This document shows positions 10,485 to 16,604 of a stretch of 39,097 nt of DNA, one piece after another. The notes beneath the pieces were generated by a model. The model did not search any database. It was not told the DNA's origin and saw only the letters and a program-made list of their open reading frames with translations. Origin of the DNA: Thermoplasmata archaeon (GTDB taxonomy: Archaea > Thermoplasmatota > Thermoplasmata > Thermoplasmatales > Thermoplasmataceae); contig JAJYUI010000003.1 of assembly GCA_021792595.1 (NCBI GenBank), positions 1 to 39,097 of the forward strand, written 5' to 3'. Position 1 is the stretch's first letter, and each line of letters starts with the position of its first letter. The position numbers and the translations under genes were made by a program.

Positions 10485-10898
10485 ATGGCAGATAAAATGT
10501 CTCTGTTACTGGTGTCTGGAACTGCTGACAAGCTCATGGCAGGAAGCATAATCGCTAGCGGTGGAGTTGCGAATGGCATGGATATTGACATCTTTGTCAG
10601 TTTCTGGGGGCTGATGGAAATGAAGAAAGATGCCCCTCCAAATATGAAGTTGAGCTTTGAGGGCAAGGACATGGCTGACCAGATCTTTGCAGTAATGAAG
10701 GAGAAGAAGGTACCGGGATGGAAGGAAATGCTGAGACAGGCCAAGGATGTCGGGAACATCAAGGTCTACGCTTGTGCAATGTTTGCCGATCTCATGGGGC
10801 TAAAGAAGGAAGACCTCGATCCCATGGTGGACAGCATAATTGGAGTGTCAGAATTTGTTGACATGGCAAAAGATTCTAAGGTGACCCTGTTTATATGA
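10485..10898 (+). CDS. DsrE-family sulfur carrier/transferase-like protein (DsrE2/DsrE3-like)
   Basis: [25 protein letters not shown] and [36 protein letters not shown] resemble DsrE2/DsrE3; a single Cys in YACAMF; adjacent to tusA. Confidence 0.8.
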
Positions 10899-10908
10899 GG
10901 TGAAAGAA

Positions 10909-11151
10909 ATGGCTGAAGAAATAAAAGCGGACAAGGTAGTAGATGCAAGGGGCAGTTTCTGCCCCGGACCACTTATGGAACTGATAAAGGCGTACAAGGA
11001 AGCGAAGGCTGGCGATGTGATAAGCGTCTATTCCACAGACAACGGAACCAAGACGGATGCGCCTGCCTGGATCAAGAAGTCTGGGAACGAGTTGATTAAG
11101 ATAATCGATCGAAACGGATACGTAGAGATCGTGATGAAAAAGGTAAGGTAG
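10909..11151 (+). CDS. TusA-family sulfurtransferase/sulfur carrier
   Basis: [53 protein letters not shown] with CPxP motif. The track start GTG 10900 lies within the SD-like GAGGTGA; ATG 10909 preferred. Confidence 0.93.
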
Positions 11152-11159
11152 TGTGAGTT

Positions 11160-12302
11160 TTGCTAGCTGCTAAAAAGGTCGTGATACTTGGTGACGGCGC
11201 AGCTGGAACCATAATGGCAAACAAGCTGCGCATGCTTACGCACTCCAGCGAAACCAGGATCGTAGTCATAGGAAATTCCAAGAAACACTATTTCAAGCCT
11301 GATGGCGTGCATATCCCCTTCAAACTGAAGAGGTACCAGAACAGCGTGAAACCCACGAGGTTCCTGTTCAACTATGGCGTTGAGTACATATTCGACGAGG
11401 CAACGGGAATTGATGTTTCCCAGAGAACCGTTCGGCTCAAATCTGGCAACAGCACATCCTACGATTATCTCATAATTGCAACTGGGGACAGGTTCGATTA
11501 CAATGAAATTCCAGGTTACATAGGTGAGGCGAGACACTTCTACGACCTTCAGCATTCGTTGGAACTCGCTAACATTCTGGATTCCTTCAATGGAGGGAAG
11601 ATCGTCATTGGTCCGTCCAGTATACCGTACCAGTGCCCTCCGGCCCCTTACGAGTTCACTTTCCTGCTTGACAAGTACCTCAGGGACAGGGGGATAAGGG
11701 ATAAAACGGAAATCCACTATACATTCCCCCTCAACAGGGTCTTCACCATGGAGAATGTCGCAAACTTTGTCAACAGGCTGTTTGACGAGAGAGGAATCAT
11801 TACGCACACCCTCTTCAACGTTGAGTCGATCAATGGCCTCAATAAGACTGTCACTTCAATCGAGGGAGAGGACGTGAAGTATGACCTGCTCATCATGGTG
11901 CCACCTCACAAGGGGCAGAAGATGATCACAGATTCTGAGCTCGCTGGCCCAAGCGGATACATAGACGTTGACAGGCATAAGTTGAGCTACAAGGATTACG
12001 ACGATGTGTTTGCAATCGGTGACGCGACCAACCTTCCGATATCAAAGGCTGGAGCAACCGCTCATTTTGAGTCGGAGTATCTTGCAAACCGAATAGCTCA
12101 CGAGATTTCTGGAAACGTGTACGACGAGACTTACAACGGAGAAGTGGCGTGCACGACGATCACGGGTGCAGGGAAGGCAATGACCCTGTACTTCTCGTAT
12201 GACAGACCCCCAAGGGCCGAGTTCCAGAGCAAGATGGATTACCTGTTGAAGTGGACCTCTGCAGACACCTATTTTTCAGGGATGCTCAGGGGGATAATGT
12301 GA
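11160..12302 (+). CDS. FAD-dependent oxidoreductase of the sulfide:quinone oxidoreductase (SQR) superfamily
   Basis: VVILGDGAAGTIMANKL Rossmann motif, DYLIIATGDRFDYNEIPG, YQCPPAPYEFTFLLD, DVFAIGDATNLPISKAGATAHFESEYLANRI; TTG start. Confidence 0.85.
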   Translation: MLAAKKVVILGDGAAGTIMANKLRMLTHSSETRIVVIGNSKKHYFKPDGVHIPFKLKRYQNSVKPTRFLFNYGVEYIFDEATGIDVSQRTVRLKSGNSTSYDYLIIATGDRFDYNEIPGYIGEARHFYDLQHSLELANILDSFNGGKIVIGPSSIPYQCPPAPYEFTFLLDKYLRDRGIRDKTEIHYTFPLNRVFTMENVANFVNRLFDERGIITHTLFNVESINGLNKTVTSIEGEDVKYDLLIMVPPHKGQKMITDSELAGPSGYIDVDRHKLSYKDYDDVFAIGDATNLPISKAGATAHFESEYLANRIAHEISGNVYDETYNGEVACTTITGAGKAMTLYFSYDRPPRAEFQSKMDYLLKWTSADTYFSGMLRGIM

Positions 12303-12312
12303 GGTGAAAGAA

Positions 12313-12798
12313 ATGAATGACGATTCTGTGGAAATCATGAAAGAGGAGAATATTGACGAGATGGCAAGGATGCTTGGAGAACTTGAGGAAAACGCGGACA
12401 TATTCAAGTCGTTGCTCGACATCCTAAAGAGGCTCAAGAAAGCAGGTGTCGTGGGGTTCCTTGACAACCTGTCAAAGGACTTTATGCCCACTGATGTGGA
12501 ATTTCTTGGAAAATTTTTCACTTCAAGGGAGTTCAGTACCGCCACGATAAAGGCGGGCAACACGATGATAGCCATGCTTTACACCCTCTTGAGTGAACAG
12601 AATTCTGACCTTGTCAAGTTGCTCCTTTACAACGCGGAGGGTTTCTCTGAAGCGATCATTGACGGTGCCAAGAATCCAAGGAAGATGTCCCTGCTTTCCC
12701 TTTATTCAATGATCAAAGACCCTGATGTGGCCTCCGGGATGACTGCCCTTCTCAACGCATTGAAGGTGCTTGGGAAGGTAATAAACGAGAAGATGTGA
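12313..12798 (+). CDS. DUF1641-family protein
   Basis: C-terminal LLSLYSMIKDPDVASGMTALLNALKVLGK pattern of DUF1641; directly downstream of an SQR-like gene. ATG 12313 preferred over GTG 12304 in the SD. Confidence 0.7.
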   Translation: MNDDSVEIMKEENIDEMARMLGELEENADIFKSLLDILKRLKKAGVVGFLDNLSKDFMPTDVEFLGKFFTSREFSTATIKAGNTMIAMLYTLLSEQNSDLVKLLLYNAEGFSEAIIDGAKNPRKMSLLSLYSMIKDPDVASGMTALLNALKVLGKVINEKM

Positions 12799-12877: not shown

Positions 12878-14905
12878 ATGATATATCTCTTCTCACTAAT
12901 TCTGATTATAGGCATCGTTGCTTCAGTGATTCTATTCTTCTACTCACTTTATGAATATGCCTGGAACATGCTTAAGATCCCGTTGAAGAAGCCAAGAATG
13001 AAACTGCAGGTCCTCAGAAGGGTCTACACAGTCATAAAGAATGTACTGTTCCAGCGCAAATTGTTCAAGGACCCCAGCGGAGGTGTAATGCATGCCCTCA
13101 TGTTCTGGGGTTTTGTTGCATTCGGGGCATATTCTCTTGACTTTCTCGCAACGGGCGCTGACCCGTCGTTCAGGTTCTTCCTTTCGGGTATTGTGGAAGA
13201 GGCTGCATTCTTCACAGTGGATCTTTTCGCGGTTATTGTGCTAGTGGATGTGTTTTACTCCATCCTCAGGAGATGGGTCATCAAGGTCCCGAGGTACCAG
13301 GGATATAACGGGTTTGAGGCATGGTTCATCCTGCTGCTTATTGGTACCCTGATGGTATCATACTACATTCTCGGCATCCTCAGGCTGCAGGGTTATACCG
13401 CTGGAATTCCTGGATCAATAATGGGAGGATTGCCTGCTTCTGCTACCCCTGTGACAGCGTTTCTCTCTTCGATTTTTGTTGTTCCCGCAAGCTATGCCCT
13501 GGGTATTTACTGGTCTGTGTGGTCAATACATGCACTGGACTTCCTGGTGTTTCTTGTTTACATACCAAGGTCAAAACATCTCCACCTCGTAGCTGCCCCG
13601 CTGAATGTATTACTCTATGATTACAAACCCAGGGGAGAGCTTACGGTGGTTGATTTCGAGAAGGAGACTAGATTCGGGGCCACGGATGTCCGAGACTTTA
13701 CGTGGAAGGACTATCTTGACTTTTACTCATGCACGGAATGCGGCAGGTGTACTTTTAACTGCCCCGCGTTTCTCACCGGGAAGACGCTTTCACCAAGGGA
13801 CATCATATGGGATCTGAGAGAAACACTCATAGCCCAGGGAAGAAATTTGAGGAGGAGCGGTGAAAATCCATCAGAGTCTCAGCAACTCACGAGCGTGATT
13901 GGTGACCCGATACAGGAGGAGGATCTATGGTCATGTACCACCTGTGGCGCTTGCGTTGAGCAATGCCCCGTAATGATTGACCATGTCGACAAGATAGTTG
14001 ACATGAGGAGATCACTTGTCCTTAACCAGGGAAAGGCGCCGAAGGAAGCCCTGGACTTGTTCCGGAACATTGAGTCATACTCAAGCCCCTGGGCATACGA
14101 CCCGTCCACAAGGGGAGACTGGGCCAACGGGCTTGATGTTGTTGACCTGTCAAAGACGCCCGATGCCCCGTTCGACTACCTCTACTGGGTGGGGTGCGTG
14201 GGGAGTTATGACCCCAGGAACCAGGAAATCTCAAAGGCTGTTGTGAAAGTACTTAAGAGCGCCGGAGTAAAGTTTGCAATTCTGGGATCTGAAGAAAAGT
14301 GCACTGGAGACCCCGCCCGAAGAGCTGGCAACGAATACCTGGCGCAGACCATGATACAGCAGAACATGTCAACCCTCAATGGCAAGAATGTCAAGAAGGT
14401 AATCACGAACTGCCCCCACTGTTTCAACTCCTTCAAGAATGACTACAAGGCTTTTGGCCTGGAACTGGAAGTCCACCACCACACCGAATTCATTGATAGC
14501 CTTGTGAAAGAGGGAAAAGTAAAGATCGCCTCGAATGATCAGGACAAGGATGAAAAATACACATTCCACGATTCATGCTATCTTGGAAGATACAACAACA
14601 TTTTCCAGCAACCAAGAGACGTAATCGGGAACTTCGCCGTAAACTACCAGGAACTTGAAATGGCCAAGACCAAGGGATTCTGTTGTGGTGCTGGCGGAGG
14701 GAGGCTTTTTATGGACGAGAAAGTTGGGCAGAAAGTATCCCACAAGAGGATAGAGATGGCGGAAAAGGTCAACGCAACCACCGTAGTCACCGCCTGCCCT
14801 TACTGCATGACCATGTTGGATGATGCACGAAAAGTCAAGAACCTTGAAGACAAGATGAAGATCAAGGACCTTGCAGAACTTGTTTCTGAGAGGCTTTCCA
14901 AGTAA
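12878..14905 (+). CDS. Membrane-bound FeS oxidoreductase with NarI-like N-terminus, 2x[4Fe-4S] and CCG domains (HdrD/EtfD-like)
   Basis: N-terminal multi-TM region; CTECGRCTFNCP and CTTCGACVEQCPV ferredoxin motifs; EEKCTGDPARRAGNEY; NCPHCFNSF; DSCYLGRYNNIF...GFCCGAGGGRLFMDE...ACPYCMTML. Confidence 0.88.
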   Translation: MIYLFSLILIIGIVASVILFFYSLYEYAWNMLKIPLKKPRMKLQVLRRVYTVIKNVLFQRKLFKDPSGGVMHALMFWGFVAFGAYSLDFLATGADPSFRFFLSGIVEEAAFFTVDLFAVIVLVDVFYSILRRWVIKVPRYQGYNGFEAWFILLLIGTLMVSYYILGILRLQGYTAGIPGSIMGGLPASATPVTAFLSSIFVVPASYALGIYWSVWSIHALDFLVFLVYIPRSKHLHLVAAPLNVLLYDYKPRGELTVVDFEKETRFGATDVRDFTWKDYLDFYSCTECGRCTFNCPAFLTGKTLSPRDIIWDLRETLIAQGRNLRRSGENPSESQQLTSVIGDPIQEEDLWSCTTCGACVEQCPVMIDHVDKIVDMRRSLVLNQGKAPKEALDLFRNIESYSSPWAYDPSTRGDWANGLDVVDLSKTPDAPFDYLYWVGCVGSYDPRNQEISKAVVKVLKSAGVKFAILGSEEKCTGDPARRAGNEYLAQTMIQQNMSTLNGKNVKKVITNCPHCFNSFKNDYKAFGLELEVHHHTEFIDSLVKEGKVKIASNDQDKDEKYTFHDSCYLGRYNNIFQQPRDVIGNFAVNYQELEMAKTKGFCCGAGGGRLFMDEKVGQKVSHKRIEMAEKVNATTVVTACPYCMTMLDDARKVKNLEDKMKIKDLAELVSERLSK

Positions 14906-14961: not shown

Positions 14962-15861
14962 TTACTGTCCAGATTTTATGGCTTCAACCAGTTTTGGTAC
15001 TATCTGGAAAAGGTCCCCCACAATGCCGTAATCTGCCTCCTCAAAAATTGGGGCAGCCTTGTCCTTGTTTATTGCAACCACAGTCTTGGAACCGCGCATA
15101 CCGGCTATGTGCTGTATCTGCCCTGATATCCCCAGTGCTATGTACACCCTGGGCCTTACTTTCTTTCCTGATAGACCGACCTGCCTGTCCTCTGACAGCC
15201 AGTGGTAATCCAGGCAAATTGGCCTTGAACCAGCAAGCTCTCCCCTGACTGCTTCCACAAGGGGGTTCACCTTCTCGATATTCTCCTGCTTGCCTATCCC
15301 CCTTCCAATGCTTACAATGATTCCCGCTTTCTCCAGATCAACTGCGCCTGATGTCTTGTCCTCGGCGCCAATAAGGGTAATCCTGCTTGCAGGTGATTCT
15401 ATTTCTGTCACAGTCCCTTCTTTCGCAGATGATTTCGGTTCTGATATTCCAGGCATTACCGTCAGAATCTTTGCGGTCGAAGATTCCTCCAGAACAGTTT
15501 TTCCTCCGTAGAAAAATCTCCTGGTGATTATTCTTCCCCCCTCTGTTCTGAATCCTGTGATCTCGCTTGCCACCTCAAACCCAAGGTCTTCAGACAACAG
15601 AGCGGCTACATCCCTGCCAATTGCAGTCGATCCGATAAAAATGTAGTCGTAGTCATTTTTCTTCTGTAGTTCCAGAATAGAGGCTGCAATTGACTCTGGG
15701 AACTGCCTCCCCTTAAGAGCGTATATATTACCGGCACAGTACTTCGCCACCCGGTATGGGTCCTTTCCGCTAGTAACAGAATCAGTTTCCATGGTGCCGG
15801 AAAGGAATGAATTGATCTGTATGCCGAGATCGTCCACGTCAGAGAATACCATCGCCTTCAC
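14962..15861 (-). CDS. etfA: Electron transfer flavoprotein alpha subunit
   Basis: 299 aa; GIIVSIGRGIGKQENIEKVNPLVEAVRGELAGSRP, YIALGISGQIQHIAGMRGSKTVVAINKDKAAPIFEEADYGIVGD. Confidence 0.95.
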   Translation of the reverse strand: MKAMVFSDVDDLGIQINSFLSGTMETDSVTSGKDPYRVAKYCAGNIYALKGRQFPESIAASILELQKKNDYDYIFIGSTAIGRDVAALLSEDLGFEVASEITGFRTEGGRIITRRFFYGGKTVLEESSTAKILTVMPGISEPKSSAKEGTVTEIESPASRITLIGAEDKTSGAVDLEKAGIIVSIGRGIGKQENIEKVNPLVEAVRGELAGSRPICLDYHWLSEDRQVGLSGKKVRPRVYIALGISGQIQHIAGMRGSKTVVAINKDKAAPIFEEADYGIVGDLFQIVPKLVEAIKSGQ

Positions 15862-16604
15862 TTGATCGCCTCCCTGATTGCCTTCGACACTTCGGGAATT
15901 CCTTTTTCCGGATCCTCAAATACAAGTTTCTTCCTCTCACTCTTCGGTGCAAGATTTGAGATTACCTGCACCTCCGAACTGCCAGAGATGGAAGTAGCCT
16001 CCATGTTTATGGGTTTCTTTCCAGCTTGCAGTATCTGCATTACAGGAGGCAGCCTTGGTTCATTTATCTCCTGTGTTACAGATATAACGAGTGGAGTTGC
16101 AGCTTCTGCAGTCAGGTTTTCGCTCTCCGTAGCCATGACGACTCTCGCCTTTCCCTCCTCCACGTCCACCTTTATAGCGTTTGAAAGTAGAGGCTCGCCC
16201 AGTATCTTGGCGATCTTTCCTGCCAGGAGCCCGGTGTAGGATTCTGCAGACTGGTTTCCCATCATAACAATGTCGTGTGGGATGGTCTTGATCTTCTCTG
16301 CAAGAACTTTGGCTGTCCTGGTGGGATCGTTTCGTTCATATCCAGTAATAATCAGTCCCTCATCCACGCCCATCGCGTAAGCCTCTTTCAACGCCGAAGA
16401 AGCCTTTTCAGTACCGAAACAGAGCCCGTATACCTTTCCTCCTTTCTTCTCCTTGATCCTCACGGCTTCCTCTATGGCATTCTTGCTCAGTGTTTCAAGT
16501 CTAAGCGGCAGGTTCTGTACCAGTGGTGACCCGGTCGAAGGGTCCGCTTTCAACAAGTCTATGTCTATAATCTGCTTGAACAGCACTATTATGTTAACTG
16601 GCAT
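15858..16604 (-). CDS. etfB: Electron transfer flavoprotein beta subunit
   Basis: 248 aa; KNAIEEAVRIKEKKGGKVYGLCFG, GNQSAESYTGLLAGKIAKILGEPLLSN; ATGA overlap with etfA. Confidence 0.93.
   Translation of the reverse strand: MPVNIIVLFKQIIDIDLLKADPSTGSPLVQNLPLRLETLSKNAIEEAVRIKEKKGGKVYGLCFGTEKASSALKEAYAMGVDEGLIITGYERNDPTRTAKVLAEKIKTIPHDIVMMGNQSAESYTGLLAGKIAKILGEPLLSNAIKVDVEEGKARVVMATESENLTAEAATPLVISVTQEINEPRLPPVMQILQAGKKPINMEATSISGSSEVQVISNLAPKSERKKLVFEDPEKGIPEVSKAIREAIK

Follow-up and report, generated by a model that had tools for sequence, protein, structure and literature searches.

The window (the whole 39,097-nucleotide stretch analyzed, taken from a Thermoplasmata metagenome-assembled genome, MAG) contains a compact group of four genes on the plus strand. 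A gene for a DsrE2/DsrE3-like sulfurtransferase (10485-10898, 137 amino acids) with a single conserved cysteine, Cys-97 (codon 10773-10775), is followed by a TusA gene (10900-11151, 83 amino acids), whose CPGP motif holds Cys-21 (codon 10960-10962). Next come the gene for a predicted type-III-like sulfide:quinone oxidoreductase (SQR; 11160-12302, 380 amino acids, TTG start), with Cys-159 and Cys-331 encoded at 11634-11636 and 12150-12152, and a DUF1641 gene (12304-12798, 164 amino acids, alternative ATG at 12313), which specifies an all-helical protein devoid of cysteine. An earlier note on this DNA had placed four plus-strand open reading frames at these positions; we confirm all four, and each product scores above the Pfam curated cut-off for its family.

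The genes are separated by 1 bp (DsrE-TusA), 8 bp (TusA-SQR), and 1 bp (SQR-DUF1641). The octamer TGAGGTGA is present on the plus strand at the first and third junctions (10896-10903 and 12300-12307, respectively), and at the latter the SQR stop codon overlaps the Shine-Dalgarno-like start region of DUF1641. Junctions of the TGAGGTGA type are repeated at many orthologous SQR/DUF1641 boundaries; within the window, the octamer is no rarer than expected by chance. A scan for bacterial promoters and terminators returned no signal exceeding that of shuffled sequence. Upstream, the operon is bordered by a divergent M1 aminopeptidase gene. Its downstream neighbor, overlooked in the earlier note, is an HdrD-like gene on the same strand (12878-14905), which starts 80 bp 3' of DUF1641.

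Sulfur carriers and the SQR-type flavoprotein

The DsrE-like protein matches PF13686 (DrsE_2) with 90 bits, above the curated cut-off, and its closest structures are PDB 2qs7 (E 6e-28) and 3pnx (E 8e-17). Against the DsrE2 equivalog NF047629 it reaches 44.8 bits, under the curated cut-off of 210 bits, and the profile matches thus assign it to the DrsE_2 family and outside this equivalog. Cys-97, which occupies the YxC position, is kept in 39 of 39 aligned homologs. TusA scores 70.6 bits with PF01206, again above the cut-off, and its CPGP cysteine is found in 40 of 41 aligned homologs, the remaining one being truncated ahead of the motif.

The flavoprotein matches Pyr_redox_2 (PF07992; 63.1 bits) and FCSD_central (28.9 bits), both above the Pfam curated cut-offs. 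Its top curated match is NCBIfam NF049943 (type III SQR) with 336 bits, compared with a curated cut-off of 525 bits that was set for a selenoprotein subtype; by this measure the protein is related to type III SQR but falls outside the NF049943 subtype. The nearest PDB chains are likewise SQRs (human SQOR, 6oi5, E 2e-38). The only two cysteines, Cys-159 in CPPAPYEF and Cys-331 in ACTTITG, correspond to a redox pair of the Cys-160/Cys-356 type, and both are kept in all 18 operon orthologs. These features identify the protein as a FAD protein of the SQR/FCSD group with two dinucleotide folds, and we predict it to be a type-III-like SQR.

Related SQR-DUF1641 pairs that are encoded apart from carriers behave differently: both redox cysteines are kept in 23 of 45 such paralogs, and one or both have been lost in the other 22 (for example at loci L033, L035, and L034). 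Because about half of the carrier-less paralogs lack the complete pair, SQR-DUF1641 pairing alone does not imply sulfide chemistry, and the flavoproteins that lost cysteines may act on another substrate, perhaps in an NDH-2-like manner.

Homology of the DUF1641 protein

The DUF1641 protein scores 40.0 bits with PF07849 (cut-off 21), and its AF2 model is all-helical (pLDDT 85). A profile built from SQR-linked DUF1641 proteins alone matches ForE1 in the PDB at 8e-9, and one built from formate dehydrogenase (FDH)-linked members does so at 4e-22. The combined family-wide profile retrieves ForE1 (1e-22), HucM (1e-5), YjlC (0.0013), and an "NDH-2 membrane coupling protein" (0.002). Apart from artefacts with repeat or designed proteins, its PDB matches comprise only quinone- or membrane-coupling subunits. 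We rejected the matches to repeat proteins (PPR), which sum many weak repeats (single repeats have E >200). The part common to HucM, YjlC, and the NDH-2 coupling protein is the conserved C-terminal KDPDVxxG segment, an amphipathic helix (Pfam stretch residues 121-158) encoded at 12664-12777 on the plus strand. Since the profile finds the ForE1, HucM, YjlC, and NDH-2 coupling subunits, DUF1641 is probably a quinone-coupling subunit of the SQR. This assignment sharpens the earlier suggestion of a scaffold or interaction subunit: DUF1641 is, more specifically, a relative of ForE/HucM/YjlC-type quinone- or membrane-coupling subunits.

A Foldseek search with the DUF1641 model gave YjlC in the YjlC-YjlD model 9a63 as its top match, which is weak (E 0.09, TM 0.23). 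When an orthologous SQR-DUF1641 pair was modeled as one chain by in-frame read-through, the pTM was 0.70; confidence was low around the junction and over the N-terminal half of DUF1641, and the model contained no confident interface. Distances among linked SQR and DUF1641 proteins are correlated (Mantel r 0.80), a value to which shared species history contributes.

We also considered whether DUF1641 substitutes for the C-terminal membrane tail of SQR. Among the first 94 SQRs, sampled within the order, 69 are DUF1641-linked and short-tailed, 21 are unlinked with a long tail, and 4 are unlinked with a short one; no linked SQR has a long tail. In the tree only about 2 tail changes underlie this pattern, and the other families sampled contain many unlinked SQRs with the same tails of 49-58 amino acids. 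On this wider sampling, we rejected substitution as a rule. Candidate natural SQR-DUF1641 fusions were dismissed as well, the open frames of 478-681 amino acids being GC-rich frame extensions.

Gene neighborhoods in the family and the class

Of the 37 genomes in the window's family, 18 carry the intact operon in the order DsrE-TusA-SQR-DUF1641, the median gaps being a few bases wide. Three further families of the class also have the four-gene set (f13, f28, and, in varied order, f12). The earlier note had named a lack of co-occurrence beyond this genome among the observations that would refute its proposal; such co-occurrence was found. A scan of named genomes located the complete operon about two dozen times in Thermoplasmata MAGs, a set that includes the complete genome CP009479; these loci overlap with the family genomes already counted and are not additive. 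Family f13 contributes ten loci with the four-gene set, often plus a second TusA and DsrE. In the f13 loci L187-L200, two TusA and two DsrE genes lie ahead of the SQR, and this doubling suggests a longer sulfur relay.

PF07849 has matches in 36 of the window family's 37 genomes, usually two per genome; the 24 genomes from the order's other families have no match. Within the window's family, DUF1641 genes occur in three contexts: in the DsrE-TusA-SQR-DUF1641 operon, as SQR-DUF1641 alone, and between a ForC-type FDH and FdhD. Altogether 71 of 76 DUF1641 genes lie behind an SQR (57, directly) or a ForC-type FDH (about 14), and several of the remaining 5 sit at contig ends. In the third context, a ForC-type formate dehydrogenase of ∼980 amino acids is followed by DUF1641 and then FdhD (L046, L052, L056, and others); these Thermoplasmata clusters are archaeal counterparts of Bacillus ForCE.

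DsrE-TusA-SQR operons that lack DUF1641 are present in families f3, f4, f19, f24, and f27 and as a paralog in the window's family, and loci in f16 combine DsrE with SQR. Such operons are common, so DUF1641 is not needed by every SQR of this kind. Together with the carrier-less SQR-DUF1641 pairs, they define the carrier-SQR link as the broader core and DUF1641 as a lineage-dependent addition; the SQR-DUF1641 link in turn exists independently of the carriers.

At four loci from the order's other families (L123, L132, L133, and L134), the SQR gene precedes one for a repetitive helical protein of 220-291 amino acids, which has no Pfam match. In a local search, its profile matched SQR-linked DUF1641 proteins weakly (2e-5), so that it could represent a diverged coupling subunit akin to DUF1641.

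sHdr, sulfur donors, and the EtfD neighbor

A CCG-domain search of this MAG (85% complete) for the sHdr components HdrC1-B1-A-C2-B2 returned only EtfD, and no sulfur-to-sulfate pathway was seen in such searches. Four single-contig relatives contain no HdrB pair, their CCG matches being EtfD/GlcF-like proteins of about 390-690 amino acids. A search for SOR, run without a positive control, was also negative. The earlier description of a candidate persulfide-handling module lacking a complete soluble Hdr complex is supported by the CCG-domain search and by the conservation of the operon.

The HdrD-like gene at 12878-14905 could extend the operon and replace sHdr/DsrMK as its electron acceptor. 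It shares the strand, starts 80 bp downstream, and also adjoins the operon in one congeneric genome (L092/L178). Its top structure match, however, is EtfD (PDB 9ojn, E 3e-117; cf. PMC13083937), EtfA/EtfB and β-oxidation genes lie nearby, and at the other orthologous loci it is not found beside the operon. We therefore consider an extended operon highly improbable and reject this gene as the electron acceptor. Because a single further genome, also from this genus, has it beside the operon, we left the EtfD-like gene out of the module. It converges with EtfA/EtfB (14962-16604, minus strand) and encodes a membrane FeS protein of the ETF:menaquinone oxidoreductase type. Its surroundings, a β-oxidation and oxoacid-dehydrogenase region, include two acyl-CoA dehydrogenases, a thiolase, and a 3HCDH-ECH fusion.

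A different neighborhood was observed at L151 (G002:C72:1-8000) and L150 (G007:C15:8000-13722), where a type-III-like SQR without DUF1641 adjoins a DsrK/HdrC-like FeS protein of 461 amino acids and siroheme genes (CobA/Met8-like). L151 additionally encodes a NarI-like membrane protein and a sulfite-reductase-like protein. These loci possibly represent an SQR-to-DsrMK-type module.

Proposed mechanism and alternatives

On balance, gene content and sequence comparisons make it probable that the operon of these acidophilic archaea encodes one cytoplasmic complex oxidizing sulfide (or a low-molecular-weight persulfide), with electrons passing to quinone via DUF1641 and sulfur to TusA/DsrE. The SQR would oxidize sulfide, and the electrons would move from its FAD to membrane quinone; DUF1641 would deliver this quinone to the flavoprotein or keep it there. 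The sulfane sulfur on Cys-159/Cys-331 would then be removed as a persulfide by TusA and DsrE and not be released as polysulfide. From the carriers, the sulfur may go on to Fe-S clusters, to thiolation, or to an oxidase; sHdr, of which the CCG-domain search found no complex, is not the sink here.

The carriers could also work in the opposite direction, bringing protein-bound persulfide or thiosulfonate that the flavoprotein oxidizes or reductively releases, with DUF1641 coupling the reaction to quinone. DsrE and TusA feed an oxidizing enzyme in Metallosphaera cuprina and in sHdr systems, and the carrier genes stand at the head of the operon. SQRs, however, accept sulfide and require a sulfur acceptor, a role that TusA/DsrE could fill. 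The flavoprotein's descent from SQRs and its conserved pair of redox cysteines favor sulfide as the substrate and DsrE/TusA as acceptors, and the earlier hypothesis that the flavoprotein oxidizes persulfide delivered by TusA/DsrE is not supported as stated. We rate the acceptor direction above the donor direction, which we regard as unlikely, because the SQR cysteines are intact and no donor enzyme (sHdr or, in the search lacking a positive control, SOR) was found.

Two further readings concern the purpose of the complex and the part played by DUF1641. The SQR may serve to clear toxic sulfide, with DsrE/TusA passing sulfur on to Fe-S cluster assembly or to tRNA or cofactor thiolation and energy conservation being incidental. 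With CCG domains confined to EtfD, this MAG shows no evident complete lithotrophic pathway, as this reading would have it, but a dedicated quinone-coupling subunit would be left unexplained; we hold an assimilatory or detoxifying purpose to be possible, though somewhat doubtful. Alternatively, DUF1641 could be a generic assembly or stability subunit of peripheral oxidoreductases, with no quinone role. ForC1 without ForE1 indeed loses most of its formate:benzyl viologen activity as well, indicating that ForE aids structural integrity (PMC8808070), but every characterized profile match is a quinone- or membrane-coupling protein (PMC8808070, PMC10017518), and a purely generic subunit appears improbable. 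Our estimates for these alternatives overlap with that for the sulfide-oxidizing complex and do not sum to one, as assimilation versus respiration is a question of purpose and not of mechanism.

The operon may even specify a new kind of SQR complex, in which a soluble cytoplasmic SQR receives membrane quinone through a DUF1641 stalk and gives its sulfane sulfur to dedicated TusA/DsrE proteins, a proposal that we put forward tentatively. If it is true, bacteria and archaea would use DUF1641 as a common adaptor that delivers quinone to formate dehydrogenase, hydrogenase, NDH-2, and SQR. For a domain of unknown function that many genomes encode next to redox enzymes, the proposal offers a testable role. 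It also connects sulfide oxidation with the quinone-delivery subunits recently discovered in hydrogenase and formate dehydrogenase, and it names specific partners with which to address a long-standing question, namely where SQR deposits its sulfur in organisms that lack sHdr.

Comparison with known systems

The individual parts of the operon are known. In the open-access literature, the scope of our search (subscription journals and preprints lay outside it), no paper was found that connects DUF1641 with SQR, and within this literature an SQR combined with both a ForE/HucM-type coupling subunit and operon-encoded TusA/DsrE is undescribed. The predicted flavoprotein shares fold, FAD, and two redox cysteines with known SQRs (human SQOR and the Acidianus and A. 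ferrooxidans enzymes), for which we know of no DUF1641 partner. Known SQRs pass their sulfur to polysulfide or small thiols, whereas here operon-encoded TusA/DsrE would take it. The DsrE3-DsrE2-TusA clusters linked to sHdr in Sulfolobales, Hyphomicrobium, and Acidithiobacillus contain the same type of sulfane relay proteins but come with an HdrA/B/C complex, and none was found with the window operon. In Ignicoccus hospitalis, a DUF1641 protein and a FAD-dependent pyridine nucleotide-disulphide oxidoreductase are encoded by neighboring genes (Iho_0672/0673), both up-regulated in co-culture (PMC3149612); the DUF1641 protein is listed there as unknown and its neighbor as a generic oxidoreductase, and carriers are not mentioned.

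NDH-2 is a member of the same flavoprotein superfamily as SQR, and the pairing of YjlC or the "NDH-2 membrane coupling protein" with NDH-2 (PDB 9snk, 9pxk, 9a63), in which a DUF1641-like protein partners a flavoprotein related to SQR, is therefore the nearest analog. Its substrate is NADH instead of sulfide, and TusA/DsrE have no place in the NDH-2 system. HucM of the Huc [NiFe]-hydrogenase (PDB 7uus) is a helical, membrane-associated, menaquinone-conducting subunit that shares the C-terminal segment with DUF1641; its hydrophobic membrane stalk is thought to be the route of menaquinone to the hydrogenase (PMC10017518). The catalytic subunits are unrelated, and the tetrameric tube is a feature of HucM. 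An archaeal HucM homolog, HysM, has been modeled in Acidianus (PMC11018855), and the Huc operon of Parageobacillus includes a DUF1641 gene (PMC12976888). In ForCE of B. subtilis (PDB 8rqz), a soluble redox enzyme is likewise encoded beside a DUF1641 subunit, ForE (YjgD/YrhD), which is needed for menaquinone binding and reduction (PMC8808070). The partner there is the molybdenum enzyme ForC, whereas the operon in the window joins its DUF1641 subunit to a predicted SQR flavoprotein and two sulfur carriers.
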